DNA from: Planctomycetota bacterium | Lineage (GTDB): Bacteria; Planctomycetota; Planctomycetia; Pirellulales; PNKZ01 | Reading direction: 5' to 3' | Assembly: GCA_018242585.1 (NCBI GenBank) | Contig: JAFEBQ010000022.1 | Coordinates: 1-64,000 of the forward strand | DNA: 64,000 bases | Shown: one piece after another, positions 5,925 through 35,551 of the stretch | Position numbering within the stretch: position 1 is the stretch's first letter | Layout: every line of letters begins with the position of its first letter | Position numbers and translations under genes: made by a program | The notes under the pieces: model-generated | What the model was told of the DNA's origin: nothing | The model's database searches: none | The model's input: only the letters and a program-made list of their open reading frames with translations

Positions 5925-7280
5925 TTAGCCGCTCTTCTCGACGGGCAATTGCTCGGTCACGTGCAGCCCGTACTTTTCCAACAGCCGATACAAGCTGCGA
6001 CGATTCAGCCTCAGCGCTCGGGCCGTGCGAGCCTTGTTACCGCGTTCGCGTTTCAGCACTTCGAGCACGTGCGACCGCTCGACTTCTCCCAGGTCGTCGA
6101 CGCCCGTCACCGAGGGGCTGTCCTTGTTGTCGGCGACTTCGTCCGGCAAGTCCTTGAGTGTGATCTGCCAGTCGTCGGCCAGGATCTTGGCTCGTTCGAT
6201 GGCGTTGATCAACTGGCGGATGTTCCCCGGCCAAGGGTGGCGCTCCAGGGCCTTCAGCGCCTCGGGCTCGATCGTCCAGTCGGCGCCGACAAAGTGTTTG
6301 ACCAACAACGGGATGTCGCCGACCCGATGGCGCAGCGGCGGCAGGTTCAACGACATGACGTTGATGCGGTAGTACAGGTCTTCGCGGAACCGACCAGCCT
6401 TTACCTCGGCGGCCATGTCGCGATTCGTGGCAGCCAACAGGCGCACGCTGACGCGACGTTCCTTGACCGAGCCAATGCGGCGCATCGAGCCGTCTTCCAG
6501 CACGCGCAACAGCTTGGCCTGCAGCGCCGGCGGCATCTCGCCGATCTCGTCGATGAACAACGTGCCCCCGTCGGCTACCTCGAAGAACCCTGGCTTGGCG
6601 TTGACCGCGCCGGTAAAGGCTCCCTTCTCGTGGCCGAAGAGTTCGCTTTCCAGCAACGTCTCGGGCAAGGCGGCACAGTTGATTGTCACCAGCGGCCGAT
6701 CGGCCCGCGCGCTCGTGCGGTGCAGGGCGGCGGCGACCAACTCCTTGCCCGTGCCGCTTTCTCCTTGAATCAGAATCGCCTTGTCGGTCGGGCCGGCGCG
6801 CTCGATCAGCCGCCAGACCTCTTTGATCGCGGACGATTCGCCGATCATCTCGCACTTGCCGGGACGTTGGTTCAGCAAGTGCTTGAGCTGCTGGTTCTCC
6901 TTGACCAGGTGGCGCCGGTTGGTCGCTTTCTCGACCAGTGCTTCAAGTTCGGCCAGCGACGACGGCTTGCGCAGATAGTAATACGCGCCGGCTTTCATCG
7001 CCTGGACGCAATTCTCGACGCTGGCTTCGCCGGTCAGCACGATGACTTCGCACTCGGGCTGCAAAGCGCGTAGCTGCCCTATCAGTTCGAGCCCCGAGAG
7101 TTGAGGCATGTTCATATCGACGATGGCCACGTCGAACTCGCGGCGGTGAGCCAGTTCCAGGGCGTCGAGGCCGTCGCCGGCTTCCTGGACCTGGTAGCCG
7201 CGTTTGGCCAGCCGTTTGGCCATTACCGAACGGAACTCGGCGTCATCATCGACAACCAACAGATCAATAGCTTCGGACAT
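5925..7280 (-). CDS. Sigma-54-dependent NtrC-family response regulator (REC-AAA+-Fis)
   Basis: 451-aa DNA-binding activator. An N-terminal receiver has its phospho-acceptor Asp55 in VAIVDMNMP and the switch residues Thr84 and Lys105. The central AAA+ domain has Walker A GESGTGKE (173-180) and the sigma-54-contacting GAFTGA loop (220-225), both intact. A Fis-type helix-turn-helix (NKARTARALRLNRRSLYRLL) lies near the C-terminus. It will activate sigma-54 promoters when phosphorylated. No kinase is adjacent; the nearest are at 14.7 and 16.7 kb. It stands divergent from a strong -24/-12 promoter at about 7477, its probable target. It is a close paralogue of the regulator at 27756-29153. Confidence 0.95.
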   Translation of the reverse strand: MSEAIDLLVVDDDAEFRSVMAKRLAKRGYQVQEAGDGLDALELAHRREFDVAIVDMNMPQLSGLELIGQLRALQPECEVIVLTGEASVENCVQAMKAGAYYYLRKPSSLAELEALVEKATNRRHLVKENQQLKHLLNQRPGKCEMIGESSAIKEVWRLIERAGPTDKAILIQGESGTGKELVAAALHRTSARADRPLVTINCAALPETLLESELFGHEKGAFTGAVNAKPGFFEVADGGTLFIDEIGEMPPALQAKLLRVLEDGSMRRIGSVKERRVSVRLLAATNRDMAAEVKAGRFREDLYYRINVMSLNLPPLRHRVGDIPLLVKHFVGADWTIEPEALKALERHPWPGNIRQLINAIERAKILADDWQITLKDLPDEVADNKDSPSVTGVDDLGEVERSHVLEVLKRERGNKARTARALRLNRRSLYRLLEKYGLHVTEQLPVEKSG

Positions 7281-7365
7281 TGCTCCCCACGTCCGCCTAC
7301 CTGGCGGCAGTCAGTTTATTTTGATTGGATCGAACCGCGCGTCCGTGCTCTGGCGACCCACGGCG

Positions 7366-7407
7366 TGCGGCTCCGCACATTTTCGGTTAATCGCCGTGCG
7401 GTTCGCA
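7366..7407. promoter_or_regulatory. Candidate enhancer dyads for the NtrC-type regulator
   Basis: Two short dyads share the arms TGCG/CGCA: TGCGGCTCCGCA at 7366-7377 and TGCGGTTCGCA at 7397-7407. They lie 70-110 bp upstream of the -24 element at 7478, the usual distance for an NtrC-type upstream activating site, and between the regulator and its probable target. A related dyad (TGCGATCGCA, 29203-29212) occurs upstream of the second sigma-54 promoter. Assignment as a binding site is inference. Confidence 0.4.
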
Positions 7408-7476: not shown

Positions 7477-7492
7477 CGGCACTTGAATTGCA
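7477..7492 (+). promoter_or_regulatory. Sigma-54 (-24/-12) promoter
   Basis: The sequence CGGCACTTGAATTGCA fits the sigma-54 consensus TGGCAC-N5-TTGC, with the invariant GG (7478-7479) and GC (7490-7491) separated by exactly 10 bases. It lies about 57 bp upstream of the ATG of the 84-aa gene and faces away from the divergent NtrC-type regulator. Confidence 0.75.
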
Positions 7493-10484: not shown

Positions 10485-10509
10485 GATTCGCTCTTCTGCT
10501 CGCCATCGA

Positions 10510-12372: not shown

Positions 12373-12517
12373 TGGCACGGCGTCACTCGTTCCGCTCGCC
12401 TGGAAGCCGCGCCCTGTCGACCGAACCATTTCGCGTCGACGGCCTCGATGGCGGTGACAACTTCTCCCATCATCAAACTTACTTAACTAGGCATTATAAC
12501 CAAGAACTTCATTGCGA

Positions 12518-12922: not shown

Positions 12923-12949
12923 GATCGGCTCCTTCACGTGGATGAGTAA

Positions 12950-14134
12950 TCAGGGGCATTTGCTGGGAGCGGCCGCTGGCAGTTCGTAGCGATAGAAGGC
13001 CGCGACGCCGATGCCGGCCGGAATGGTGTCGCCGGCCACGGCGAAAGCGCTGCCACGGTGCTTCAAGGTCTGATAAGCCGCCAAGTCGAACAAATCTTCC
13101 GCGCCCGGCGTCGTTTCATCAGTCAACTCGACCGAGCCAGTCCCAGAATTGAACTTGCCCCACAGCGCGTCATCGCGATCGACAAACACGGTATCAACCG
13201 CTCCGGCAAACGCCGCGCTCAAGATGTTCTCGATCGAAGCCGACACGCGCGCCGTGCCCAAATGTTCCTCAATCCGCTCACGACCGTTCTTGGCGGCCTG
13301 CCGCCAGACGGGCGCGAGCATCTCGACCACCCGGCGATGCAACTCGGCGTCGCTCCAATGCTCGGGGCTGCCATGCACTGGCAAGCCGAACAGTTGCGGA
13401 TAGGTGTTGACGTCTTGATAGATCGGGAACAGGTACTGGACCCCTGCGAACAATAGCGGAGCACGCTCGCTTCCCAGGTAATCGTGCAGAGCGCCATTGA
13501 TCATCCGGAACCAGGTCCGCAATTCGTCCTTGTGCCGATCGACTTCGCCCCCTTGGCCGTGGTACATGGTTCCCTGGTCGCCGCGACCTCCGCCCGAGGC
13601 GCCCAGAACTTGGACCATGCCTTGCGGCGGCTGATAATTCAGCGCCTGGGTCAAACCGACGGGTAAGGTGTCGACCGCCAATCGCTCGAGCTGCCAGCGG
13701 TCGCCGCGATAGAGCCGGACGCCGTTCTGGCTGACGGCCAGCACGAAGTAGGCGTGGTTGTCAGTTAGCAGCGGCAGCACCGGCTTGATGCAAACACGGT
13801 GCCCGACCGCGACGGTCTCGACCACGCTCATCGGCAATTGCCAACGCTTCATGCCCGCCGTGGTCAAAATCACCATCAGTCCCTGGCTTTGGTCGTGCCA
13901 GAACTTGGTGTCATCCACCAGCGCACGCCCAGGCTTGAGCAAGCGGGCCGCCGCCTCCTCGTCGATGCCTTCGGCCAGCAGCTTTTGCCCGGCCCGGTTG
14001 AGTAAGTTCTTCAGGCGGATCGGACCTTGCTGCCCAGCCGCGCCGGACGGCGAGGTGGGAAGATAGATCGTGACGCAAGGCCAACTCGTGGTCTCGAGGC
14101 AGTCTTGCAGGTTGCGTTGAGTGAAGGTGTCCAT
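12950..14134 (-). CDS. baeRF (bacterial archaeo-eukaryotic release-factor-like) family protein
   Basis: 394-aa cytoplasmic protein. The opening (LQDCLETTSWPCVTIYLPTS) and the later segments YFVLAVSQNGVRLYRGD and PLLFAGVQYLFPIY are those of the bacterial eRF1-like (baeRF) families, which share the middle/C-terminal fold of eukaryotic release factor 1 and Pelota. They are proposed to act on stalled or hibernating ribosomes, but no member has a firmly proven role. The central segment GASGGGRGDQGTMYHGQGG is a Gly-rich loop in the position where eRF1 has its GGQ-bearing domain. It has a plausible ribosome site (AGGGAACG) and is first in the minus-strand operon 14134-8934. Confidence 0.7.
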   Translation of the reverse strand: MDTFTQRNLQDCLETTSWPCVTIYLPTSPSGAAGQQGPIRLKNLLNRAGQKLLAEGIDEEAAARLLKPGRALVDDTKFWHDQSQGLMVILTTAGMKRWQLPMSVVETVAVGHRVCIKPVLPLLTDNHAYFVLAVSQNGVRLYRGDRWQLERLAVDTLPVGLTQALNYQPPQGMVQVLGASGGGRGDQGTMYHGQGGEVDRHKDELRTWFRMINGALHDYLGSERAPLLFAGVQYLFPIYQDVNTYPQLFGLPVHGSPEHWSDAELHRRVVEMLAPVWRQAAKNGRERIEEHLGTARVSASIENILSAAFAGAVDTVFVDRDDALWGKFNSGTGSVELTDETTPGAEDLFDLAAYQTLKHRGSAFAVAGDTIPAGIGVAAFYRYELPAAAPSKCP

Positions 14135-14712
14135 GATGCGTTCCCTGTCACGCTAGTAATTGTTCCGCCAAGCGGTTCAAGTTAGCGCGATAAAAGTGGG
14201 CGTCGGACGCTGACCCACAGGCGGCCAGCGCCAGACGCCCTAGGGCAATTACGACTTGACTTCCGCCTTGCTGGTCTTGGCCGACTCGACCTTCATGGCT
14301 TACTTCCACCGGCCACGGTGGAAGTAAGCACGCCTCGGCTGATTAGAACGCACCTTTTGTGCCAAGCAGAGGGGAGAGTGGAATCAGCGTTTTAGGCCGC
14401 GAAATTAAGCTGGCTGAGGCAACGTGCCTGGGCTCGAATGTGTCAAGGCGCGCGAGATGAGCGGCCCGGCACACCGGCGCGCCAGACTGACGCAACGGCC
14501 GCCAGGGGCGATCGGCTGGCAGACACGGCAATGCCGCTCGGGATCGCCGGCCGATCGTAGGCGGAGATACTTTCCGTCCCCGTGCTTGATATTAGAATCG
14601 AGTTGCCGCAGCGACTACGGGCCATGGGAATGGGCCATCGAATCGCTGGGGACGAGAACGAGTGACCCGCGTTTCGCGTTCTACCGTGTGGTATTGCCAG
14701 CAGGTTGTCGTC
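14135..14712. other. Intergenic region between the baeRF operon and the globin-kinase operon
   Basis: 578 bp without a convincing gene; it separates divergent operons and must hold both promoters. I found no match to the GG-N10-GC sigma-54 pattern on either strand. The clearest structure is the perfect hairpin at 14298-14329, listed separately. A 15-codon open frame (minus, 14249-14296) begins just inside it but has no other support. Confidence 0.6.
14298..14329. repeat. Perfect inverted repeat, 14-bp arms
   Basis: Left arm GCTTACTTCCACCG and right arm CGGTGGAAGTAAGC are exact reverse complements around a GCCA loop. There is no T-run on either side, so it does not look like a simple intrinsic terminator. 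It lies in the divergent promoter region, 164 bp from the baeRF start and 384 bp from the globin kinase start, and may be an operator, an RNA hairpin or a REP-like repeat. Confidence 0.8.
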
Positions 14713-15879
14713 ATGCAAGCAGACTTGCTTTTCAAACGCTATCAGGAGTTGCAGACCTACGTGGGCTGGCAGCCGACCGATGCTGCGCGCGTGGCGGCCG
14801 CGGCCGAGGCGCTGCGTCCGGCGTTCGCGCGGCTGATCGATGACTTCTACGAAGAAATCGAGAAGCACGAGGCGACGCGCCGCGTGATCACGGGGGGGGC
14901 ACAGCAGATCATGCGTTTGAAGGGGACGTTGATCGGCTGGCTCGAAAACCTGGTTTCCGGCGTGTATGACCGCGACTATGTCGCGCGCCGTTGGCGAGTC
15001 GGCTTCCGTCACGTGGAAATCGGCCTGGACCAGGTGTTCACCAACGCGGCCCTGTCACGGCTGCGGGGCGGATTGGCGCGCGCGCTGGACCAGGCTTGGA
15101 CGGGCGACGCCACCGCGCTCGCCGCTGCGCACCGCTCGTTGAACTTGCTGTTGGACCTGGACCTGGCAATTATCGAAGACGCTTATCAAACGGCGTTTCA
15201 ACGCCGGCAGCAGCAGGTCGAACGGCTGGCGACGATCGGACAGGTGGCGGGTGGCATCGCGCACGAACTGCGCAATCCGCTGAACGTCATCAAAACATCG
15301 ATCTATTTCTTGCTGAACGCCAAAAACGCGTCGCCCGACAAGGTGGCCACGCACCTCGAGCGGATCAATCGCCAGGTCGGTCTGGCCGATGGGGTGATCA
15401 CGGCGTTGAACAATTTCGCGCGCTTGCCCGTGCCCGAAATGCAATCGATCGGTACGCGCGAGTTCCTGCGGAACGTGATCGATTCAGTGACGATTCCGGC
15501 CGTGGTGCAAGCGTCGATCGACTGCCCCGAGGACGTGGGGGTAATCATGGGGGACGCGCGTCAGTTGGCGATCGTATTCAGCAACCTGATCCGCAATGCC
15601 TGCGACGCCATGCCCGATGGCGGGCAGCTTACGATTCGCGCTCGGAGCTTGCCCGAGCTGGTCGAAATCGCGGTCACCGACAACGGCGTCGGCATTGCCC
15701 CCGAGCATCTATCGCGCGTGGTCGAGCCGCTCTACTCAACCAAGGCGCGCGGTATCGGGTTAGGGTTGGCCATGGCCGTGGCCATTCTCGACAAGCACGG
15801 CGGCCGGCTCAAAATCGAAAGCGAGGTCGGTCGAGGAACGACAATGACCGTCCTGCTGCCGTCAACCGTCGCAATCTGA
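14713..15879 (+). CDS. Globin-coupled histidine kinase (heme-based O2 sensor kinase)
   Basis: 388-aa cytoplasmic kinase. Residues about 1-160 form a sensor globin of the protoglobin type: Tyr46 in DDFYEEIE as distal ligand candidate and His100 in VGFRHVEIGLD as proximal heme ligand. Residues 165-388 form a HisKA/HATPase_c kinase with phospho-His184 (GIAHELRNPL), N-box NLIRNACDAM, G1 DNGVGI and GLGLAMAV. As far as I recall, AfGcHK of Anaeromyxobacter uses Tyr45, His99 and His183, so all three residues line up with a constant shift of one. The ATG at 14713 is used because domain similarity starts there; an upstream start at 14662 adds 17 unlike residues. The next gene encodes a double receiver, as in AfGcHK. 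Confidence 0.9.
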   Translation: MQADLLFKRYQELQTYVGWQPTDAARVAAAAEALRPAFARLIDDFYEEIEKHEATRRVITGGAQQIMRLKGTLIGWLENLVSGVYDRDYVARRWRVGFRHVEIGLDQVFTNAALSRLRGGLARALDQAWTGDATALAAAHRSLNLLLDLDLAIIEDAYQTAFQRRQQQVERLATIGQVAGGIAHELRNPLNVIKTSIYFLLNAKNASPDKVATHLERINRQVGLADGVITALNNFARLPVPEMQSIGTREFLRNVIDSVTIPAVVQASIDCPEDVGVIMGDARQLAIVFSNLIRNACDAMPDGGQLTIRARSLPELVEIAVTDNGVGIAPEHLSRVVEPLYSTKARGIGLGLAMAVAILDKHGGRLKIESEVGRGTTMTVLLPSTVAI

Positions 15880-15921
15880 TCCCGCCTGCTAGAATCTCCC
15901 TCGCGCATGCCTGAGGCCCAT

Positions 15922-16662
15922 ATGTCCGACGCTAAAACTCGTATCCTCGTCGTCGACGATGAACCCGATACCTGTGAGAATCTCCGCGACATTTTCACCG
16001 AGATGGGATACGAAGCTGACATCGCGTTCAACGGATCGGATGCAATGGAATTGGTGGCCAGGCAGCACTACGACGTGGCGCTGCTCGATCTGAAAATGCC
16101 CGGGATGGACGGGTTGGAACTTTATCGGCGCATTCGCAAGGTCTCGGCCGGCACGGTGGCCATCGTGGTGACTGCCTATGCCAGCAGTAGCACCGCCGAT
16201 TCGGTTCTCGAGGCCGGCGCCTGGCGGATGCTATCGAAGCCGGTGAACTTTCAACAGTTGTTGACCGCGGTCGGCGAAGCGGCGAATCAGCCGCTGGTCC
16301 TCTTGGTGGACGACGACTCGGAATTGTGCGACAGTCTGTGGGATTTGTTTCGCGAGCAGGGCTACCGCGTGTGCCTGGCCCACGATGTCGATGCGGCGGC
16401 GCGGCAGTTGGAACGCTGCGGTCATCAGGTGGTGTTGATCGATTGGAAACTGCCGCGCGGCACGGGGGCCGATGTGTTGAGTCTGGTACGTAAGCAGTCA
16501 CCCCGGGCCCGCACCATTCTGATCACGGGCCATCGAGGCGAGTGGGAAGAACGGGTGCAAAACGCCTTGCAGCAGGGGGCCGACGCCGTCTGCTACAAAC
16601 CATTCGAAATGTCACGGTTGTTGGAAACAGTTCGTCAACTTTCTCGTCCGAGTTCGTCATGA
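15922..16662 (+). CDS. Double-receiver response regulator
   Basis: 246-aa protein made of two receiver domains and no output domain. REC1 has acidic pocket DDE (12-14), phospho-Asp56 (ALLDLKMPG), Thr84 and Lys106. REC2 begins near residue 124 (VLLVDDDSE), with Asp174 (VLIDWKLPRG) and a C-terminal CYKP Lys. The ATG at 15922 follows a GAGG site; an ATG at 15907 has none. It begins 42 bp after the globin kinase and its last bases overlap the next gene (ATGA at 16659). It is probably the direct phosphate acceptor of the globin kinase and passes phosphate on within the cluster, since it cannot bind DNA itself. Confidence 0.9.
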   Translation: MSDAKTRILVVDDEPDTCENLRDIFTEMGYEADIAFNGSDAMELVARQHYDVALLDLKMPGMDGLELYRRIRKVSAGTVAIVVTAYASSSTADSVLEAGAWRMLSKPVNFQQLLTAVGEAANQPLVLLVDDDSELCDSLWDLFREQGYRVCLAHDVDAAARQLERCGHQVVLIDWKLPRGTGADVLSLVRKQSPRARTILITGHRGEWEERVQNALQQGADAVCYKPFEMSRLLETVRQLSRPSSS

Positions 16663-18095
16663 GTGCGTCTCGTCCGCCGCGCGTGCTGATCATCGAGGAC
16701 GACGCCGACGCGCGGGCCAACCTGACGGACATTCTGGAAATCGACGGCTGGCAAGTCGACACCGCCGCCACGGCCCGCGAGGCGCAAACCGACCGGCATT
16801 GGGCTGATTACACGGCCATCATGCTCGACCGCCGCTTGCCCGACGGCGATGGCGCCGAGTTGCTGCCACGTTTGAAGGCGCTGGCCTCCGACGCGGCGAT
16901 CATCATGATCACCGGCTTTACCGATTTGGACGGCGCGATCTCGGCGTTGCGGCTCGGCGCGGCTGACTACATATTGAAGCCGGTCAATCCCGATGCGCTG
17001 CGCGCCAGCCTGGGGCGACTGGCCGAGCGACAACGCGTGGCCGAGGCGCTGCAAGAGACCGAGCAGCGACTGGCGGCCGTGTTTGAGAACGCGCTGGACG
17101 GGATCGTGATCGCCGATACCAAGGGGCGGATGATCGATGTCAACCCGGCGGCGTGCGCCATTCTGGGTTTCAGTCGCGCCGAGTTGCTGGCCCGTTCACT
17201 CCATGACCTGGCGCCGTCGGAAGAGTTGCCGGCGTTCCAACAGCAATGGGAGCGGCTGGCAACGCTGGGTAAGCAGGTGGTCGAGATCAACATGGTCCGA
17301 CGCGGCGGCGCGGTGATCGATGTCGAATACCAGGCCGTGGCGAACTTTCTCACCGGCTTGCACTTGTTGTCGATTCGCGACATCACTTCGCGCAAAAAGG
17401 CCGAAGAGCGCGCGCTGCAAGCCGAACGGCTGGCGGCGATCGGCGAGACCATGGCCGGGCTGGTTCACGAAGGACGCAACGCGCTGCAGCGGAGCAAGGC
17501 TTGCCTGGAGATGCTGGCAATGGAGGTGGAAGATCGGCCCGACGCGCTCGATCTGGTAGCTCGCGCACAACGCGCCCAGGAAGACATACACCGGTTGTAC
17601 GAAGAAGTGCGACAGTACGCGGCGCCAATCCGGCTCCAGCGCGAGGACTGTGACCTGCGCCGGCTGTGGCGGGAAATCTGGGCCCAGGTGACACACCTGC
17701 GCAGCGCCAGTGTGCTGAGTTTGCACGAGGAAGTGGCCGGCGACCCGTGTTGCGAGGGGGATTTTTTTCAGCTCGGGCAGGTGTTCCGCAACATTTTCGA
17801 AAACGCGATTCAGGTTTCCCCTCCCGCAGGAAGAATCTCGGTTGATTGCCAAGAGGTCTCGCTCGACGGAAAACCCGCGGTAAAGTGTCGGATTGTCGAC
17901 CAGGGACCGGGCATGAACCGGCAACAGCGGACGCGGATTTTCGAACCGTTTTTCACGACCAAGTCAAAAGGGACTGGCCTCGGCATGGCAATTGCCCAGC
18001 GTATTATCCAGTCGCATGCCGGCACGATCGAAGTAGCCGACCGCGACGGACCGGGGGCCGAAATCGCCATCACCTTGCCCAAAGCCGTCCCATGA
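16659..18095 (+). CDS. Hybrid sensor kinase: receiver-PAS-HisKA-HATPase_c
   Basis: 478-aa cytoplasmic protein. An N-terminal receiver (phospho-Asp57 in IMLDRRLPDG) is followed by a PAS domain (about 140-250; ENALDGIVIADTKGRMIDVN) and a kinase core. The H-box reads AGLVHEGRNAL: the phospho-His is present but the usual Pro after RN is Ala. The ATP domain is complete (N-box NIFENAIQVSP, G1 DQGPGM, then EPFFTTKSKGTGLGMAI). Having the receiver at the front suggests that phosphorylation by another kinase controls its activity. It overlaps both neighbours by ATGA, so translation is coupled from the double receiver to the last receiver. Confidence 0.9.
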   Translation: MSASRPPRVLIIEDDADARANLTDILEIDGWQVDTAATAREAQTDRHWADYTAIMLDRRLPDGDGAELLPRLKALASDAAIIMITGFTDLDGAISALRLGAADYILKPVNPDALRASLGRLAERQRVAEALQETEQRLAAVFENALDGIVIADTKGRMIDVNPAACAILGFSRAELLARSLHDLAPSEELPAFQQQWERLATLGKQVVEINMVRRGGAVIDVEYQAVANFLTGLHLLSIRDITSRKKAEERALQAERLAAIGETMAGLVHEGRNALQRSKACLEMLAMEVEDRPDALDLVARAQRAQEDIHRLYEEVRQYAAPIRLQREDCDLRRLWREIWAQVTHLRSASVLSLHEEVAGDPCCEGDFFQLGQVFRNIFENAIQVSPPAGRISVDCQEVSLDGKPAVKCRIVDQGPGMNRQQRTRIFEPFFTTKSKGTGLGMAIAQRIIQSHAGTIEVADRDGPGAEIAITLPKAVP

Positions 18096-18484
18096 CCGAT
18101 AGCTTGCGCGTTGCCGTGGCCGATGACGAATCGGACATGCGCGACTTCTTTGAACGGATGCTCCCACGCTGCGGACACCAGGTCGTGGCCGTGGCCGAGA
18201 TGGGCGAGCAACTGGTCGAGTTGTGCCGACAGGTAAAACCTGACCTGGTGATCACCGATTTCAAAATGCCAGGTATCGACGGCATCGAAGCCTCGCTGCA
18301 AATCTGTCGCGAGCGACCCACCGCGGTGATTCTGGTTTCGGCGTATCACGATCCCGAACCGATCACGCGGGCCGAAAACGACCATGTGCTGGCCTATTTG
18401 GTCAAGCCGATCGGGCTGGTCGATCTGGCCCCGGCCATTGCCGTGGCCATGCGCCGGTTTCAGGAATTGCAGACCCACCGGTAG
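18092..18484 (+). CDS. Single-domain response regulator
   Basis: 130-aa receiver with no output domain. Acidic pocket DDE (11-13), phospho-Asp56 (LVITDFKMPGIDG), conserved Ser in ILVSAYHD and Lys in YLVKPIG are all present. The start ATG overlaps the stop of the preceding kinase (ATGA). The sequence resembles receivers of the AmiR/NasT type, but the protein ends right after the receiver, so no ANTAR or other RNA-binding tail exists. It is the last gene of the four-gene signalling operon and probably shuttles phosphate to, or drains it from, the two kinases; the distant sigma-54 regulators are possible end points. Confidence 0.9.
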   Translation: MTDSLRVAVADDESDMRDFFERMLPRCGHQVVAVAEMGEQLVELCRQVKPDLVITDFKMPGIDGIEASLQICRERPTAVILVSAYHDPEPITRAENDHVLAYLVKPIGLVDLAPAIAVAMRRFQELQTHR

Positions 18485-27755: not shown

Positions 27756-29153
27756 TCAGGCGGTCGATTGCCGCGGCTCGGTCGGCACGCGATTGGCCAT
27801 CGCGGCCCCTTCCAGGTTGTACTTCTCGAGTAGCCGATAGAGGCTCCGCCGGTTAATGCCCAGCGCGCGCGCGGCGCGGGCTTTGTTCCCCCGTTCGCGG
27901 CGCAGCACTTCGATGACGTGCGAGCGCTGGATCGCTTCGAGCGAATCACCGGCTACCTTCCACGACACCGTGTCGATATCCGGCGCCACGCCCAATCGCG
28001 TGATCTCCTCGGGCAAATCGGCCAACCGCACAATGTGGTCGTTGCCCATGATTTTGGCCCGCTCGACGGCGTTGACCAATTGCCGGATGTTGCCCGGCCA
28101 CTGGTATCGTTCCAGGGCTGTCATCGCGGCGGGCTCGATCCGCCAGTCGCGTCCCAAGAAGTGTTCGACCAGCAGCGGGATATCGGACATTCGCTCGCGC
28201 AACGGTGGCAGGTTGAGCGCCATCACGTTGATACGATAGTATAGGTCTTCGCGGAATCGCCCGGCCTTCACCTCTTCGGCCATGTTGCGATTGGTCGCCG
28301 CGAGTAGCCGGACGTTGACGCGACGCTCTTTCACGCTGCCGACGCGGCGCATCGACCCATCTTCCAATACGCGCAGCAGCTTGGCTTGCAGCGAGCCGGG
28401 CATCTCGCCGATCTCGTCGATGAACAGGGTGCCGCCGTCGGCCAACTCGAACAAACCGGGCTTGGCCGTCACCGCGCCGGTGAACGCCCCTTTCTCATGG
28501 CCGAACAGTTCGCTTTCCAGCAGCGACTCGGGCAGGGCGGCGCAATTGATCACGACCAGCGGCTTGTCGGCACGCGCGCTGTGCTGGTGCAAGGCGCGAG
28601 CGACCAACTCCTTGCCCGTGCCGCTCTCTCCCTGGATCAGAATCGCCTTGTCGGTGGGGCCGGCGCGTTCGATCAACCGGAGCACTTCTCGCAGCGCCGG
28701 CGAGTGGCCGATCATCCGCTGTCGCGGCGCGGCGCGGTGCAGCACCTCGCGCAGCTGGTCGTTCTCCTTGGCCAGATAGCCGCGCTCGGCCGCCCGTTCG
28801 ATCAACTTCTCCAGGTCGGCCAGCGCGCACGGTTTGGTCAGGTAGTCATAGGCGCCCAGCTTCATCGCCGCCACGGCCGACTCGATCGAACCCTGGCCCG
28901 TGAGCAGAATCACCTCGCACTCGGAATGACCAGCCTTGAGCTTCTCGAGCAGCTCAACGCCCGACATGCCCGGCATCAGCAAGTCGACGATGGCCACGTC
29001 GAACTGGCGGCGATTGGCCAGGTCGAGCGCTTCGAGGCCGCCGGGCGCTTCTTGCACTTGGTAGCCGCGGCGTTCAAAACGTCGGGCCAAGATGCCGCGG
29101 AACTCGTCATCGTCATCAACGACCAGCAGGTCGACATGCTGTGGGTTGAGCAC
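27756..29153 (-). CDS. Second sigma-54-dependent NtrC-family response regulator
   Basis: 465-aa paralogue of the regulator at 5925-7280. Receiver with phospho-Asp57 (VAIVDLLMPG), AAA+ domain with GESGTGKE and the GAFTGA loop, and a Fis-type HTH (NKARAARALGINRRSLYRLL). The two proteins are alike over almost their whole length, including the exact Walker and HTH regions, so they are products of duplication. The GTG at 29153 is taken as start: it aligns with the ATG of the paralogue and has AAGGG upstream. It is convergent with the exporter operon (33-bp gap) and divergent from the sigma-54 promoter at about 29475, whose oxidase operon is its likely target. Confidence 0.93.
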   Translation of the reverse strand: MLNPQHVDLLVVDDDDEFRGILARRFERRGYQVQEAPGGLEALDLANRRQFDVAIVDLLMPGMSGVELLEKLKAGHSECEVILLTGQGSIESAVAAMKLGAYDYLTKPCALADLEKLIERAAERGYLAKENDQLREVLHRAAPRQRMIGHSPALREVLRLIERAGPTDKAILIQGESGTGKELVARALHQHSARADKPLVVINCAALPESLLESELFGHEKGAFTGAVTAKPGLFELADGGTLFIDEIGEMPGSLQAKLLRVLEDGSMRRVGSVKERRVNVRLLAATNRNMAEEVKAGRFREDLYYRINVMALNLPPLRERMSDIPLLVEHFLGRDWRIEPAAMTALERYQWPGNIRQLVNAVERAKIMGNDHIVRLADLPEEITRLGVAPDIDTVSWKVAGDSLEAIQRSHVIEVLRRERGNKARAARALGINRRSLYRLLEKYNLEGAAMANRVPTEPRQSTA

Positions 29154-29202
29154 GGGAGTCGCCCTTATATGAAGGTAGATGCGGTGGCGCGCTTGTGCGC
29201 CG

Positions 29203-29229
29203 TGCGATCGCAATTACGCACAGTTGTGC
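29203..29229. promoter_or_regulatory. Candidate enhancer dyads upstream of the oxidase operon
   Basis: A perfect palindrome TGCGATCGCA (29203-29212) is followed by GCACA-GT-TGTGC (29218-29229). The TGCG/CGCA arms are the same as in the two dyads at 7366-7407. The site lies about 265 bp upstream of the -24 element at 29476, within range for DNA looping by an NtrC-type activator. Function is inferred. Confidence 0.4.
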
Positions 29230-29474
29230 CTTGGAGTGACACCTCGTCGCAATTCACGTGCCGCCCGCGCGACAGGCCAAATCGCGGAAGAAATGCAGCA
29301 AATCGAGTGGGCCAGCGCGCGTCACTCGCGGATGAAAAGCGTGCAGCCTGGCACAGGTGAGCGAGGTCGCACACTGGGTTGGCGTCTGAATGGCGACAAA
29401 CCGAAACACCACGGCATCAACAAAACTCCATGATTCTCGGGCAATTGTCAGATTCGCCACGCGACGCGGCAGTG

Positions 29475-29490
29475 TGGCATTCGACTTGCA
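29475..29490 (+). promoter_or_regulatory. Sigma-54 (-24/-12) promoter
   Basis: TGGCATTCGACTTGCA matches the consensus TGGCAC-N5-TTGCA except for one base, with GG (29476-29477) and GC (29488-29489) exactly 10 bases apart. It lies about 58 bp before the uspA-like ATG. The spacing to the start codon is nearly the same as at the first sigma-54 promoter (about 57 bp), and the following bases (CATTAG) are also shared by the two sites. Confidence 0.78.
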
Positions 29491-29547
29491 TTAGTTACTT
29501 CTGGCACGAACTAACGATGACCAATGTTCCCAGCAAGGGAGCCCATC

Positions 29548-30000
29548 ATGAACGCCAAGAAGATCCTGGTACCGACCGACTTCTCGGAAATGAGCCGTGC
29601 GGCCGTTGATTATGCGGCGGCGCTGGCGCGAGAGGGGGGCGGCGAGTTGTTGATCGTGACGGTTCGCGAGATTACGCCCATCTACGCGACTGCTGAAGGC
29701 ATGTATTGTGGCGTCGAAGAACCGAATCATGCCGCGTTGAAGCAGATGCTCAACGAAGTGCGCCCCAAAGATCCGCTGGTGCGCGTCCGGCGTGAAGTGC
29801 TGGACGGCGCGCCAGCCGACGCCATTGTGGCGCTCGCCGCGGCCGAGCAGGTCGACCTGATTGTGATGGCCACCCACGGCCGCACCGGGCTGATGCATTT
29901 GTTGATGGGAAGCGTGGCCGAGGGAGTCGTGCGCAACGCCGACTGCCCTGTCCTGACGCTCAAGCCAGCGGTCAAGTCGGCCGCGGCGACGGGCGCTTAG
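29548..30000 (+). CDS. Universal stress protein (UspA family)
   Basis: 150-aa single-domain cytoplasmic USP. The first strand KKILVPTDFSEMS and the ATP-binding signature THGRTGLMHLLMGSVAEGVV (G-2x-G-9x-G-S) are intact, so it is expected to bind ATP. The start follows AAGGGAG. As the first gene after the sigma-54 promoter and upstream of hemerythrin and oxidase genes, it is probably induced under oxygen limitation or similar stress. USPs in such clusters are used as markers of dormancy or hypoxia responses. Confidence 0.93.
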   Translation: MNAKKILVPTDFSEMSRAAVDYAAALAREGGGELLIVTVREITPIYATAEGMYCGVEEPNHAALKQMLNEVRPKDPLVRVRREVLDGAPADAIVALAAAEQVDLIVMATHGRTGLMHLLMGSVAEGVVRNADCPVLTLKPAVKSAAATGA

Positions 30001-30052
30001 GCGCCGCCTGGAACAAGCAACCACAAACGGCAAGATGCCAGGCAGGTTTCCC

Positions 30053-30514
30053 ATGAGAAGTGTCCACGAAGCGGAACCGTTTTTGCAGATGGCCCTCGAA
30101 GAGCATCGAGAGCTACACCACCAGGTGGATGACATCAATCGGATGTTCGAGCAGCCGCCTGGGGAAATCGCTCCCGACGAGGTGCGCGCGCTGCACGCGC
30201 GGATGATGTCGCTGCGCGACAACGTCAGCAAGCATTTCCGCCAGGAGGAAGCAGGGGGCTATCTGGAAGAGGCGATTTGCCGCTCGCCCACCGTGGCGGC
30301 CAAAGCCGACTCGCTCCAGAAGCAGCATCAAGAACTGCTTGAGTTGATCGACCGCGTGCTGGCGGCGCCCCACGTGGTCGACGCGCCGGCCGACGTCTGG
30401 CGGAAGTCGCAACGCGAGTTCGCGGCCTTCTGCAAGCGGCTGTTGGCGCACGAACGGGCCGAGAACGCCCTGCTGGCCAAGGCGTTCAACGTGGATTTGA
30501 GCTCGATTGACTAA
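30053..30514 (+). CDS. Hemerythrin-like domain protein
   Basis: 153-aa cytoplasmic four-helix protein. Candidate di-iron ligands are at the expected helix positions: His18 and His22 (EEHRELHH), His61 and Glu65 (KHFRQEE), His92 (KQHQELL), His123 and Glu127 (LAHERAEN). Hemerythrin-like proteins bind O2 or NO, or store and sense iron and oxygen. The ATG at 30053 is used; one at 30035 adds six residues. It follows the USP gene by 52 bp and precedes two cytochrome genes, so a role in O2 or NO handling near the oxidase is plausible. Confidence 0.82.
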   Translation: MRSVHEAEPFLQMALEEHRELHHQVDDINRMFEQPPGEIAPDEVRALHARMMSLRDNVSKHFRQEEAGGYLEEAICRSPTVAAKADSLQKQHQELLELIDRVLAAPHVVDAPADVWRKSQREFAAFCKRLLAHERAENALLAKAFNVDLSSID

Positions 30515-30588
30515 CGGCCGCGTAACGCCCCGATCCAAATAACCCGACGGCCCGCGTGGCCGCGCCGAATCGAGAATCGAGGAACATC

Positions 30589-30978
30589 ATGACCAGGCTA
30601 TTGCCGATTGGACTGTGCTGCCTGACGCTTTTCGGGCTGGGATTCCAGGTCCACGGCGCTCCGCATCCGAACGACGTGAGTGTCTTCATGAAGCTCAAGC
30701 TCCCGCACGCCCATCGCGTGTTGGACGGCATCATCATGGAAGACTATGACCTGATTGCCAAAAGCGCGAGCCAACTTGGTCTGCTCAGCCAGGAAGCGAA
30801 TTGGAACGTCTTGCAAACCCCCGAGTATCTCGCGCACAGCGTCGACTTTCGCCGCGCCGTCGATGCCTTGAGCCGCGCCGCTCGTGACAAGGATGCCGAC
30901 CAGGCGACGCTGGCTTACATGGACATGACGCTCAAGTGCGTCAATTGCCACAAGTACGTGCGCGACGCGCGGAACTAA
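30589..30978 (+). CDS. Monoheme class II-like cytochrome c
   Basis: 129-aa periplasmic protein with signal peptide (LLPIGLCCLTLFGLGFQVHG). The single heme motif CVNCH (117-121) lies at the very C-terminus, as in cytochrome c' and other four-helix class II cytochromes, and the rest is helical. It could carry electrons to the oxidase or bind NO; there is no clear distal-site evidence for either. The ATG follows GAGGAAC. It sits between the hemerythrin and the diheme cytochrome genes. Confidence 0.82.
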   Translation: MTRLLPIGLCCLTLFGLGFQVHGAPHPNDVSVFMKLKLPHAHRVLDGIIMEDYDLIAKSASQLGLLSQEANWNVLQTPEYLAHSVDFRRAVDALSRAARDKDADQATLAYMDMTLKCVNCHKYVRDARN

Positions 30979-31080
30979 ACCGCGCCGCGATCCCCATGCC
31001 CGACCTCGCCATGTCTGGCGGTAGCACCGTGGCGCAGCGGCTGAAACTGTTGACTGAAACACCTAGCGGGAGAAGGTCTG

Positions 31081-32130
31081 TTGTCGATCCGATATTCATG
31101 GCTCGTCTTGTTCGCGCTCTGGGGAGTTGCTGGTTGCGGCCAGACGCACGAGGTGGCCTGGAATCCCAGCAGCGAAGTCCGCGAACTGACGCCGGCTTTG
31201 CAGGCCAAGGTGACCGAGCAGTTGACCCGCTATTGCGGCACGCCCAGCCGACCCAGGCAATTCGGTCAGGCGGACGTGCCGACGCTGCAACTGGTGCGCG
31301 GCATGCTGGTCTATCAGTCCAAGTGCGCTGGCTGTCACGGTGACACTGGCGATGGTCAAGGCCCGGCCGCGGCGCATCTGAACCCGCGACCGCGCGATTA
31401 TCGCAAGGGAATCTTCAAGTTCATTTCCACGCCGTTCGGCACCAAGCCGCTGCGAGGTGACCTGGCTCGGACGATTCGGCAAGGCGCGAGAGGCACGTCG
31501 ATGCCGTCGTTCGCGCTGTTGGATGACGAAGACGTCGAGGCGTTGGTCGACTACGTCCTGTTGCTAACTCATCGTGGCGAGTTGGAAGCCTTGCTGGCCA
31601 ACGAAGCACGGGACGAAGACGCGATCGACCCAGCCAACGGCGAAGAGTACGTGGCGGCGATTCGACAACTGTGGCAAGCGTCGGACGGCCAGCAGATTTA
31701 CCCGCTGAGCCTCAAGCCCAAGTACACGATGGCCTCGGTGGAACTGGGCAAGCAAGCGTTCTTGTCCGAGACGGCTGGCTGCTACAAGTGTCACGGGCCC
31801 GACGGCCGCGCCGAAACGTCGGACAATCAGAAGGGATTCACCGACGCCTGGGGCGTGCAAACTCGGGCGGCCGATCTGACCAGCGGCATGTTCCACGGCG
31901 GGCAAGAGCCGCTGGACATTTACCGCCGCATCTACGGCGGCATCAACGGCACGCCGATGCCGTCGTTTTCGTTGAAGCTGGCCGATCAGCCCGACATGTT
32001 TTGGCACCTGGTCCACTACGTGCAATACGTGTCGAGCGCCCGACGCCGCGAGACCCAGGCCGAGCAGCAAGCTTACCTAACTCGCGCACGGGAAGCGGCG
32101 TCACAAGCCGCGGCAAAAGCAAAGCCCTAG
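31081..32130 (+). CDS. Diheme cytochrome c lipoprotein
   Basis: 349-aa protein with a lipoprotein signal (LFALWGVAGC, lipid-modified Cys19). Two class I heme domains: CAGCH (82-86) with Met141 in TSMPSF, and CYKCH (234-238) with Met293 in TPMPSF. The start is a TTG at 31081 after GGAGAAGG; no in-frame ATG occurs before residue 75, and only this start gives the signal. Two hemes and its place just before ccoN suggest it takes the role of CcoP, which is otherwise missing from the operon. A 102-bp gap separates it from the preceding cytochrome gene. Confidence 0.87.
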   Translation: MSIRYSWLVLFALWGVAGCGQTHEVAWNPSSEVRELTPALQAKVTEQLTRYCGTPSRPRQFGQADVPTLQLVRGMLVYQSKCAGCHGDTGDGQGPAAAHLNPRPRDYRKGIFKFISTPFGTKPLRGDLARTIRQGARGTSMPSFALLDDEDVEALVDYVLLLTHRGELEALLANEARDEDAIDPANGEEYVAAIRQLWQASDGQQIYPLSLKPKYTMASVELGKQAFLSETAGCYKCHGPDGRAETSDNQKGFTDAWGVQTRAADLTSGMFHGGQEPLDIYRRIYGGINGTPMPSFSLKLADQPDMFWHLVHYVQYVSSARRRETQAEQQAYLTRAREAASQAAAKAKP

Positions 32131-32203
32131 CGAACCATAAGCGGGCCGCGTTCCACGGTTAACAAGCCCACAACTGCGGAAATAGTTCACGACGAGACAA
32201 GCG

Positions 32204-32860
32204 ATGACTGATGCTTCTCCCCCGACTGGCAGCGAGCGCCTGCGAAAGCTGGCCGAGCTCGAAGAGCTGCGGACGCGAATCACCGATCTTGAGCGCGAAC
32301 TCGGCGCCAGCGACGAGTCCGGCTGGCCGCCACGCGGCTATTACACCGCATATTACGCCACGACCGGGTTCATGCTGGGCATCTTCGGCGCCGCCGTCAG
32401 CCTGATCTTCAACATCATCGGCTCGCTGGTCTGGTCGCGGTACAGTGGCGTCGAACAATCGCCGCTGCGGTTGATTCAGGTTTATTTGACCTTTCCGCTG
32501 GGCGAATCGGCATTGCACATCGAAAGCGTGCTGACGCTGGCCATTGGCTGCTGCTTGTACCTGGCCACGGGCATGCTCTATGGCATCATCTTTCACCTGG
32601 CGCTGACACGCTGGACCGCGGATCGCGGGCTGATGGCGCGGCTGGTGTTCGTCAGCGCGCTGTCGCTGGCCGTCTGGCTGGTGAACTTCTACGGCATTCT
32701 TTCCTGGTTACAGCCGTTGTTGTTCGGTGGCGACTGGATTGTGCGGTTGGTTCCCTGGTGGGTGGCCGCGCTGTCGCACCTGGTCTTTGGTTGGACCATG
32801 GTGTTGGTCTACCCGTGGGGCACCTACGTCCCTTATCAAGTCGAAACGGAGCAGGCATGA
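32204..32860 (+). CDS. Oxidase-operon membrane protein, unknown
   Basis: 218-aa inner-membrane protein: a charged N-terminal coiled-coil (about residues 10-37, ELEELRTRITDLEREL) and about four transmembrane helices (GFMLGIFGAAVSLIFNIIG, VLTLAIGCCLYLATGMLYG, LVFVSALSLAVWLVNFYG, VAALSHLVFGWTMVLVYPW). I do not recognise a named family. It overlaps ccoN by four bases (ATGA), so it is made together with the catalytic subunit and is probably an extra subunit or assembly factor of the oxidase. Confidence 0.8.
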   Translation: MTDASPPTGSERLRKLAELEELRTRITDLERELGASDESGWPPRGYYTAYYATTGFMLGIFGAAVSLIFNIIGSLVWSRYSGVEQSPLRLIQVYLTFPLGESALHIESVLTLAIGCCLYLATGMLYGIIFHLALTRWTADRGLMARLVFVSALSLAVWLVNFYGILSWLQPLLFGGDWIVRLVPWWVAALSHLVFGWTMVLVYPWGTYVPYQVETEQA

Positions 32861-34263
32861 CCGCCCAGAATGCAACCGCCACGACGGCTGGCGACGAGAT
32901 CAGCTACGAGCGACTGGTCGAGCAACGCCTGGTTCTCTGGTACTTGATCGCGGCGTTGACGTATCTGATGATCTCGATGCTCGGTGGCCTGTTGATGGCA
33001 ACCCAGTTGATCAACGCCAACCCGCTGCGCGGCATTGAACTGCTTTCGCCGGGACGCTGGCGGATGGTGCATACCAACGCCGTGGCCTACGGCTTTTTGG
33101 CCAACGCCTTCTTGGGCGTGTTGCACTGGGCGGTGCCCCGCTTGACGTTGCGTCCGGTGGCCAGTCGCGCATTGTCGTACTTCATTTTCATCGCCTGGCA
33201 GGTCGTGGTCCTGTCGACGGCCGCGGGCATTTTGCTTGGCCAGGCCCAGGCGGTTGAATGGGGCGAAACGCCCGTCTGGATCGACCCATTGGCGCTGGCC
33301 GGGCTGTTGCTGGTGGCCATCAATTTCATGGTCCCCATCTCGCGCGCCAAAGGGCCGTTGTACGTCACGCTGTGGTACTTCATGGCGATGTTCGTCTGGA
33401 CCTTCCTGACCTACGCCATGGGAAACTTCGTCACTCAATACGTCGTCGGCGGTGTCAGCGGCGGCGCGATCGGCGGATTGTTCATCCACGACCTGGTCGG
33501 CTTGTTCGTCACGCCGCTGGGCTGGGGAATGATGTACTACTTTGTGCCGATCTTGCTCCGCAAGCCGATTTGGAGCCACGGCCTGTCGCTGGTCGGCTTT
33601 TGGGGCTTGGCGTTTTTCTATCCGCTGCAAGGGATTCACCACTTCCTCTACACGCCGATTCCGATGTTCCTGCAATACGGCGCCGTGGTGTCGACCATCG
33701 CGGTCGAGTTCGTGGTGATGACCGTGATCATCAACTTCTTCGGCACCTTGTGCGGAGATGGCCGCGCGTTCGTGACCAACTTGCCGATTCGTTGGTTCTA
33801 CACCGGCATGGTGTTGTACTTCGTCACTTGCTTGCAGTGTGCGTTGCAAGTGACGTTAACCTTCCAGGCGCTGATCCACTTTAGCGATTGGGTCGTCGGC
33901 CACGCCCATCTGGTGATGTTCGGCGTGTTCAGTATGTGGATCCTGGGCGTGATCACGTACCTGGTGCCGCGCCTCAGCGGCCGCCCGTGGTACAGCCAGT
34001 CGCTGTGCGAATGGCATTATTGGCTGTCGGCGTCGGGCATTGTGATCATGTTCTTGGACCTGACGCTGGCCGGCATCTTTCAAGGCTACTACTGGTCTTC
34101 GCTGCAGCCCTGGGAAGTGAGCGTCGATGGCTCGCAACCCTTCTGGATCGTGCGATTGGTGGCTGGCTTGATGATGTTCGGCGGCCAATGCGCGCTGATC
34201 CACAACATGTACCAGACGTTCACGGGGCCGAAGCCGGCCGAGCAAGTAGCCTATGCGTCGTAA
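32857..34263 (+). CDS. ccoN: cbb3-type cytochrome c oxidase subunit I
   Basis: 468-aa catalytic subunit with about 12 helices. Ligands are in place: His72 (MVHTNAVAYG) and His351 for low-spin heme b, His349 for heme b3 (VVGHAHL), CuB ligands His211 (FIHDLVG), His261 and His262 (GIHHFLYTP), and Tyr255 (FFYPLQG), the residue that is cross-linked to a CuB His in C-family oxidases. The spacing of 211/255/261/262/349/351 matches, from memory, P. stutzeri CcoN with a shift of four. It reduces O2 to water at high affinity. The 4-bp overlap with the upstream gene fixes the start. Confidence 0.95.
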   Translation: MTAQNATATTAGDEISYERLVEQRLVLWYLIAALTYLMISMLGGLLMATQLINANPLRGIELLSPGRWRMVHTNAVAYGFLANAFLGVLHWAVPRLTLRPVASRALSYFIFIAWQVVVLSTAAGILLGQAQAVEWGETPVWIDPLALAGLLLVAINFMVPISRAKGPLYVTLWYFMAMFVWTFLTYAMGNFVTQYVVGGVSGGAIGGLFIHDLVGLFVTPLGWGMMYYFVPILLRKPIWSHGLSLVGFWGLAFFYPLQGIHHFLYTPIPMFLQYGAVVSTIAVEFVVMTVIINFFGTLCGDGRAFVTNLPIRWFYTGMVLYFVTCLQCALQVTLTFQALIHFSDWVVGHAHLVMFGVFSMWILGVITYLVPRLSGRPWYSQSLCEWHYWLSASGIVIMFLDLTLAGIFQGYYWSSLQPWEVSVDGSQPFWIVRLVAGLMMFGGQCALIHNMYQTFTGPKPAEQVAYAS

Positions 34264-34303
34264 CCCTGGGTGTGCAATCTCTTTCGCGATCGAGTAACTG
34301 AAC

Positions 34304-35008
34304 ATGTTTGAGAGTCGAGCGGGCGTGCTGTTTGTCGGTGGCCTGGGCTTTTTCGCCTTTGCGTTCCTGAGCAACGGGCTGGTGCCGATGCTGATGTACA
34401 AGCATCTGCCCGAGCAACAGGCCAGCGAGCTGACGAACGCCAACGTGATGTACCAATTCGAGGATTTGCAACGCCGCTATCCCGAAGCGTTCGAGCGCGC
34501 TTACGGCAAGCCCCCTACAGTGCCGGCGGGGGCGACGACCGAAGAAAAAGCCGAGGTCAAGAACGAGTGGCTCGAAAAGCAGGCCGCCCAAGCGCTGCTG
34601 CTGGGCCGCGAGGTTTACGTGGGCGAAGGCTGTTGGCATTGCCACAGCCAGTTCGTCCGCCCCGTGTCGAATGAGTCGCGCCGGTTTGGTCCGGTGTCGA
34701 AAGCCGAGGAATACCAAAACGAGTTGCAACGCCCGGTGTTGTTTGGCACGCGGCGCGTGGGGCCCGATCTGTCGCGCGAAGGGGGGCGGCGGTCGAACGA
34801 CTGGCACGCGGTCCACTTCTTCAAACCTACAACCGTCTCGACCGGCTCGCCGATGCCCGAGTATCCCTGGCTGTTCGACGGCGACGCCAGCAGGCCCAAC
34901 GAGCGCGGCCTGGCCTTGATGACCTATGTGCAATGGCTGGGTTCGTGGCTGGAAAGCTATCCGTATTACGAGGCCTATCAACCGGTCGCGCTGGAGGAGA
35001 AGAAGTAA
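34304..35008 (+). CDS. ccoO: cbb3-type cytochrome c oxidase subunit II (monoheme)
   Basis: 234-aa protein with one N-terminal anchor helix (GVLFVGGLGFFAFAFLSNG) and a periplasmic heme domain. The heme motif CWHCH (110-114) is within GEGCWHCHSQFVRPV, highly typical of CcoO, and the Met ligand is probably in GSPMPEYPW. It passes electrons to the binuclear centre of CcoN. It follows ccoN by 40 bp, and its stop overlaps the next start (TAATG). Confidence 0.95.
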   Translation: MFESRAGVLFVGGLGFFAFAFLSNGLVPMLMYKHLPEQQASELTNANVMYQFEDLQRRYPEAFERAYGKPPTVPAGATTEEKAEVKNEWLEKQAAQALLLGREVYVGEGCWHCHSQFVRPVSNESRRFGPVSKAEEYQNELQRPVLFGTRRVGPDLSREGGRRSNDWHAVHFFKPTTVSTGSPMPEYPWLFDGDASRPNERGLALMTYVQWLGSWLESYPYYEAYQPVALEEKK

Positions 35009-35331
35009 TGAGTACGTCAACGACAATCGAGGGGGCGAAGTCGCGCCGGACGCGACGCCGGCTGGGACTGTTGATGGCCGTGGTGATCCTGGTCCCCAGC
35101 ATGTTGGGCTTTGGGACCAAGTTCATCGAGTTGGTCCATGTCTTCCGCGGCGACCCCAGCGGCATGTTCGCCATCGCCCCGATCATCAACTATCTGCTGG
35201 CCAGTTGCGGCTTCCTGATGCTGTTTGCCTGGGCGGCCATGAACGGCATGTTCCGCAACATCGAACAGCCCAAACAGACGATGCTCGACAACGAAGCGCG
35301 TCTGGACGCCTATGATCAGCCTCATCGCTAA
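35008..35331 (+). CDS. Small oxidase-associated membrane protein
   Basis: 107-aa protein with two transmembrane helices (LLMAVVILVPSMLGFGTKFI and NYLLASCGFLMLFAWAAMNG) and a basic N-terminus. The ATG shares one base with the ccoO stop codon, so translation is coupled. No family is recognised; position suggests an accessory subunit or assembly factor of the cbb3 oxidase. Confidence 0.8.
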   Translation: MSTSTTIEGAKSRRTRRRLGLLMAVVILVPSMLGFGTKFIELVHVFRGDPSGMFAIAPIINYLLASCGFLMLFAWAAMNGMFRNIEQPKQTMLDNEARLDAYDQPHR

Positions 35332-35368: not shown

Positions 35369-35551
35369 ATGTCACCCGACCCGCGTGAATCAACGCCCGT
35401 CGCCGAGCACAGCTTTCACCGCTACGTCGGGAATCGCATTCCCTGGTATGTGCGGTTGCTGTGGCTGATGTTTTGGATCGGCGCGGTTTACTACGTCATC
35501 GTTTACGTGTTCCCGGCTTTGCAAATCGAACTGTTGCGCCCTGTCCAATGA
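35369..35551 (+). CDS. CcoQ-like single-helix protein
   Basis: 60-aa protein with one transmembrane helix (VRLLWLMFWIGAVYYVIVYV). Size, topology and place between ccoO and the copper ATPase fit a CcoQ-type subunit that stabilizes the oxidase, though sequence similarity is too short to prove it. The ATG at 35369 is used; an in-frame ATG at 35312 would overlap the previous gene. Its stop overlaps the next start by ATGA. Confidence 0.7.
   Translation: MSPDPRESTPVAEHSFHRYVGNRIPWYVRLLWLMFWIGAVYYVIVYVFPALQIELLRPVQ

Follow-up and report, generated by a model that had tools for sequence, protein, structure and literature searches.

A planctomycete globin-kinase locus of the Nmp kind with an altered back end

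Where does the output of a globin-kinase operon lie if none of its genes encodes a DNA-binding domain? This question is raised by four plus-strand open reading frames (ORFs) within 14713-18484 of a 64,000-nucleotide stretch of a Planctomycetota bacterium genome (order Pirellulales; assembly GCA_018242585.1, contig JAFEBQ010000022.1, positions 1 to 64,000; hereafter the window). Our analyses place this four-gene locus as a planctomycete member of the Nmp kind, named after the globin-kinase pathway of Myxococcus xanthus, with an altered back end.

ORF reading and Pfam searches defined the four products. P0001 (14713..15879, +; 388 aa) is an NmpU-like globin-coupled histidine kinase with a protoglobin domain at residues 9-161 (Pfam Protoglobin, 5.3e-30), HisKA and HATPase_c. 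P0002 (15922..16662, +; 246 aa) is an NmpT-like double receiver with two Response_reg domains (Asp56, Asp174) and presumably a phosphate sink. P0003 (16659..18095, +; 478 aa; Asp57, His270) is an NmpS-like receiver-PAS-histidine kinase with matches to Response_reg, PAS and HATPase_c, and to HisKA only under the cut-off. P0004 (18092..18484, +; 130 aa; Asp56) is a lone receiver with a single Response_reg domain. ATGA stop-start overlaps connect P0002 to P0003 (16659..16662, +) and P0003 to P0004 (18092..18095, +), and the ORFs and both overlaps bear out the first-pass annotation, made from the sequence of the window, in its description of four such genes in a row with the last three translationally coupled. 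Its count of some eight phosphorylation sites stood in part: the operon has six candidates (P0001 His184; P0002 Asp56 and Asp174; P0003 Asp57 and His270; P0004 Asp56), and eight is reached only by adding two NtrC-type proteins encoded elsewhere in the window.

The globin of P0001 aligned without gaps to that of AfGcHK from Anaeromyxobacter sp. Fw109-5 (PDB 5ohe), residues 10-159 on 9-158, with 38% identity and an E of 1.8e-27. Tyr46 pairs with AfGcHK Tyr45 and His100 with His99, heme-ligand positions occupied by Tyr and His in all but one of the 83 globins aligned (82 of 83); the distal Tyr is conserved, as are pocket residues resembling those of AfGcHK, and His184 sits in the H-box GGIAHELRNPLN. 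The alignment and H-box agree with the earlier assignment of Tyr46, His100 and His184 to the heme and phosphorylation sites of AfGcHK. An AlphaFold2 model of P0001 (mean pLDDT 86.5, pTM 0.54) has 160 all-helical N-terminal residues joined to the kinase core. The Foldseek matches listed for this model were kinase cores, not globins, and therefore the globin membership of P0001, and with it the earlier description of a globin sensor kinase, here taken to be of oxygen type, rests on sequence. By its domains and ligands P0001 fits a globin-coupled sensor, in which a heme-bound globin controls an output domain, and heme binding is predicted. Protoglobin-type sensors are able to bind several gases. 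The likeness to AfGcHK extends to the kinase architecture and the double receiver, and P0002, with its two Response_reg domains and position directly after the globin kinase, corresponds to the AfGcHK partner as had been proposed. The biochemistry described for AfGcHK is that of a two-protein system, whereas the window locus has four genes; Anaeromyxobacter sp. Fw109-5 also has nmpS and nmpR (PMC11841059).

In M. xanthus, the globin kinase NmpU, the double receiver NmpT, the receiver-kinase NmpS and the NtrC-type NmpR form a single pathway (PMC6211767). The phosphorylation targets of NmpU are NmpT receiver 1 and the NmpS receiver, and that of NmpS is NmpR only; NmpS with its receiver Asp replaced has higher activity, the NmpS receiver has been proposed as an off-switch, and phosphate is not relayed through NmpS in the system studied (PMC6211767). 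NmpR binds GCGCA-N5-TGCGC, and its regulon is made up of a CBS gene, a universal stress protein (USP) gene, a P-type ATPase with a cbb3 oxidase, and hemN-hemerythrin (PMC11841059). The window locus shares with NmpRSTU the order and domains of the NmpU-, NmpT- and NmpS-like genes (U-T-S), with a heme Tyr/His globin kinase first, a double receiver next and a front-receiver kinase third, as well as a common receiver code in T receiver 1 and the S receiver, and NtrC-type regulators nearby with USP, hemerythrin, P-type ATPase and cbb3 oxidase genes as candidate targets. It differs in having a fourth gene (a lone receiver, REC-ANTAR in relatives), in the PAS domain and other kinase core of its hybrid kinase, and in NtrC genes that are non-contiguous, of another clade and with another candidate binding site. 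The hybrid kinase was thus wrongly taken in the first-pass annotation for an undescribed addition, since the NmpU-NmpT-NmpS order with NmpR is published and nmpSTU homologues have been noted already in Planctomyces sp. SH-PL14 (PMC6211767, PMC11841059). LvrB (8vc9) and the EsxG protein (cited in PMC6211767) also have an N-terminal receiver that regulates a histidine kinase, but their partners are other than those of P0003 and their kinase cores are only distantly similar.

A survey of the class Planctomycetia gave a globin match in 133 of 397 genomes; the stronger matches were taken with their surroundings, named loci and relatives from the window's family and order were added (all cited by L numbers), and gene types were assigned by hidden Markov models built for this analysis. 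On this assignment, 29 of 126 distinct globin genes open U-T-S-REC-ANTAR operons and three open U-T-S-REC, namely those of the window, L054 and L152 (whose operon is truncated by the end of the contig). The other globin loci are of the types U-T-S, U-T-S-NtrC, globin-PAS-kinase-REC-ANTAR and globin-sigma-54 activator fusion (eight, with a Pfam check on L090). The Anaeromyxobacter loci L119-L122 and the related L125 have the U-T-S genes together with one for an NtrC protein. Looking for the four-gene order in other Pirellulales, as had been suggested, was productive: it was found in L054, L076, L206, L207 and L209.

The best PDB match of P0004 is the receiver of the antiterminator 1s8n. P0004 is 69-72% identical over the receiver to the REC-ANTAR proteins encoded in the operons of L076, L165 and L207, and it ends where the ANTAR region of those proteins starts. 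Pfam ANTAR is present in L076 and L165 (E 1.2e-18) and absent from P0004 and L054. A search with PF03861 found no match in the window genome, whereas it was positive in six genomes of other planctomycetes. Six-frame scanning under permissive settings likewise gave no ANTAR domain, just a marginal match (E ~0.02) in the stretch holding the P0004 tail. Truncation by a simple frameshift was rejected, as none of the three forward frames read beyond P0004 encodes ANTAR. In the receiver tree P0004 is nested among REC-ANTAR receivers, and ANTAR appears to have been lost about four times; the catalytic residues D11, D12, D56, S83 and K105 of P0004 are intact. Judged by homology, P0004 is the receiver left from a REC-ANTAR antiterminator that lost its RNA-binding domain. 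It is of the same receiver type as the known REC-ANTAR antiterminators (Rv1626/1s8n, EutV; PMC3369931), and relatives at the same operon position bear ANTAR; as P0004 differs from them in lacking this C-terminal domain, we class it as derived from an antiterminator and not as one itself, and it should not be expected to bind RNA. The earlier statement that the operon has no DNA-binding domain is accordingly true for the window genome, but describes a derived state, as the fourth protein of most relatives ends in the RNA-binding ANTAR.

We found no description of a globin-gated ANTAR antiterminator as an oxygen control. A dual-hexaloop scan (A1, G4) for ANTAR target RNAs gave 18 matches in ANTAR loci versus 16 in shuffles with 4-bp stems, which is no excess, and three matches with 5-bp stems, none ahead of an annotated gene. 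An association of ANTAR loss with a neighboring NtrC gene (6/10 versus 4/39 globin loci, Fisher p 0.002) was rejected, since with only ~4 independent losses it is not significant once relatedness is allowed for.

Five alpha-1 receiver positions served as a specificity code for partner choice, after OmpR/EnvZ-type specificity. T receiver 1 and the S receiver have the common code D[TIA]NDI, with N in 63/65 and 67/70 sequences, respectively (in the window, DTNDI in P0002 receiver 1 and DANDI in P0003), which is what specificity for the targets of an NmpU would require. The code is DMFRM in the lone receiver of the window and EFVKR and EFIRR in its NtrC proteins; across relatives, lone and ANTAR receivers mostly have DMY[RK]I and planctomycete NtrC receivers mostly start with [ED][FL]. 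The P0003 H-box, GLVHEGRNALQRSKACLEML, is of the type preceding REC-ANTAR genes, with HESRNALQRSQACLEML shared by P0003 and kinases in that position whether a globin is present or not. The Anaeromyxobacter NmpS H-box is SHEIRNPLNAAALQLS, and the kinases of L040, L062 and L070 have AHELNNPLxTxSLRVE-like H-boxes. A Cys at H+12, retained in P0003, is found in 48 of 54 kinases whose partner is a REC or REC-ANTAR protein versus 13 of 30 that lack one (p 1.8e-5, uncorrected for kinship). Because this H-box type and Cys mark kinases with such partners, P0004 is the best-supported candidate partner of P0003. Two things appear new in the window: a fourth gene without ANTAR, and an NmpS-like kinase whose core is of the pre-REC-ANTAR type, unlike that of Anaeromyxobacter. 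In planctomycetes REC-ANTAR genes also follow kinases with the same H-box where no globin is nearby (L208, L211, L213, L216, L217, L221-L223, L225), a wider kinase-ANTAR family of which we found no description.

The candidate outputs of the window are two sigma-54 activators identified by Pfam and the tree, NtrC a (5925..7280, -) and NtrC b (27756..29213, -; true start probably inside). The two proteins have 70% identity, against 46% for the next paralogue of the genome. In a quick tree supported by the Shimodaira-Hasegawa-like approximate likelihood ratio test (SH-aLRT) only, both fall in a 40-row globin-linked planctomycete clade (SH-aLRT 99) that is free of 15 other paralogues from the same genome. 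The genes for their closest relatives, in L186 and L187, adjoin S genes, and the genome has one copy of rpoN. Also within this clade are proteins in which Protoglobin is fused straight to a sigma-54 activator with no receiver (L090, L103, L105, L107, L109, L138, L147, L164), mostly encoded beside USP and hemerythrin genes; the literature searched gave us no account of such an architecture.

Four sigma-54-like sites are the intergenic, correctly oriented ones among the best matches. A -24/-12-like site, TGGCATTCGACTTGCA (29475..29490, +), has the ATG of a USP gene 33 bases on; CGGCACGTGAATTGCG (29248..29263, -) is upstream of NtrC b itself; CGGCACTTGAATTGCA (7477..7492, +) is ahead of an 84-aa ORF and a DHODH-like gene; and TGGCACAAAAGGTGCG (14349..14364, -) is upstream of baeRF, 139-aa ORF, P-type ATPase and AAA-kinase genes. 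Behind NtrC b, the candidate targets encode USP, hemerythrin, cytochrome c and COX1-like and FixO-like cbb3 oxidase subunits (29524..35331, +), followed by a P-type ATPase that is FixI-like by position (35461..37782, +), and are of the same kinds as the NmpR regulon. When the regions upstream of sigma-54 sites were searched for dyads in NtrC-clade loci, GTGC-N6-GCAC and GTGCG-N4-CGCAC ranked top, the former being present at 9 of 76 sites where the background is 0.0115 per site (p 2.5e-7). The fair test is that without the window, in which the motif was first spotted, and it leaves six sites (p 1.6e-4). In the window the dyad lies in two candidate enhancers, GTGCGGCTCCGCAC (7365..7378, +) and GTGCAGCCTGGCAC (29341..29354, +), the latter in the gap that separates the NtrC b and USP genes, where it would serve both divergent sites. 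The earlier proposal that output passes through the two sigma-54 regulators gains partial support from a globin-linked clade and sigma-54-like sites ahead of USP-hemerythrin-cbb3 and baeRF, all of it evidence read from DNA and protein sequences only.

Other features lie close to these sites. The 84-aa ORF (7549-7803, +) has no Pfam match and is directly behind site 7477, divergent from NtrC a. Behind site 14349, genes for an AAA/zeta-toxin-like kinase, a P-type ATPase, the 139-aa ORF and baeRF stand in a row (8934-14134, -), and some of these genes are again found close to globin operons in other loci. Between this site and baeRF (14252-14327, -) is a perfect 12-bp inverted repeat, TTACTTCCACCG-GCCA-CGGTGGAAGTAA, followed by a 15-codon minus-strand ORF, MKVESAKTSKAEVKS, whose ribosome site is inside the hairpin.

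Drawing on AfGcHK and the Nmp proteins, we infer a mechanism in which oxygen on the heme would stimulate phosphorylation of His184, as in AfGcHK/NmpU, and P0001 would then phosphorylate P0002 receiver 1, a sink, and the front receiver of P0003, which by analogy with NmpT/NmpS would keep P0003 off. As oxygen falls, P0003 would autophosphorylate at His270 and pass phosphate to the lone receiver and both NtrC-type activators, which may switch on the sigma-54 promoters of the USP-hemerythrin-cbb3 oxidase, baeRF/P-type ATPase and related genes. P0004 most likely would just accept phosphate from P0003, competing with the NtrC branch or buffering it. We consider this whole model, an Nmp-type oxygen response feeding the lone receiver and NtrC a/b, reasonably probable. 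Several points weigh against it. The NtrC genes lie outside the operon, 7.4 kb from its upstream end and 9.3 kb from its downstream end, and P0003 is only presumably the kinase serving them. In the NtrC tree the NmpR proteins of Myxococcota stand in a clade of their own. No sigma-54 site was found ahead of the globin-kinase gene, and the NmpR site GCGCA-N5-TGCGC is absent from the window promoters, its sole exact match being in the kinase H-box coding region, although this consensus is a Myxococcus trait that may not define the family. The P0003 core differs in type from that of Anaeromyxobacter NmpS, and for this reason the logic of a phosphorylated receiver turning the kinase off is carried over by analogy.

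The unlike codes of the NtrC receivers and the lone receiver count against the model too, and favor a reading in which P0003 has no partner but P0004, which would itself be the actual output and act by protein contact as CheY or DivK do, with the NtrC pair answering another kinase. The ATGA coupling of P0003 to P0004 and the H-box and Cys+12 shared with kinases that have an adjacent REC-ANTAR gene fit this arrangement, but we think it unlikely given that the NtrC clade is globin-linked, that an S gene adjoins an NtrC gene in L201 and L202, from the window's own family and with cbb3 genes in the locus, and that L054 has S, an ANTAR-less receiver and NtrC in a single operon. The same wiring could instead have a globin that senses NO, CO or heme/redox state, as sequence cannot separate the gases that such sensors bind; the conserved distal Tyr and AfGcHK-like pocket residues and candidate targets that are oxygen-use genes make this decidedly improbable. 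A true four-step phosphorelay, from the globin kinase through the double or hybrid receiver and a histidine to the lone receiver, would use the alternating His and Asp sites that are present, and the first-pass annotation had named the locus for such a relay. That name is doubtful, as Pfam finds no histidine phosphotransfer (HPt) domain in P0001-P0004 and the Myxococcus system passes no phosphate through NmpS, and we give the relay very little credence. An isolated globin kinase among unrelated neighbors in chance order can practically be dismissed, because 29 relatives keep the order with a REC-ANTAR fourth gene, and there are more U-T-S loci in Planctomycetia and in Anaeromyxobacter.

Tentatively, and with somewhat less confidence than in the Nmp-type model itself, we suggest that Planctomycetia keep one oxygen-sensing front end, made up of a globin kinase, a sink and a kinase gated by its receiver, and swap back ends, be it REC-ANTAR antitermination, NtrC sigma-54 activation, both, or a globin-sigma-54 fusion, and that the window organism lost the RNA-binding output and kept the receiver to buffer phosphate for the sigma-54 branch. 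Work on NmpRSTU has come mainly from Myxococcus, and a near-invariant receiver code with varied back ends would offer a natural test of output change under a constant sensor. This reading predicts that in most Planctomycetia REC-ANTAR is a regulator of RNA gated by oxygen, that sigma-54 controls cbb3 oxidase, hemerythrin and USP in the window organism, and that other Planctomycetia have a direct globin-sigma54 activator.

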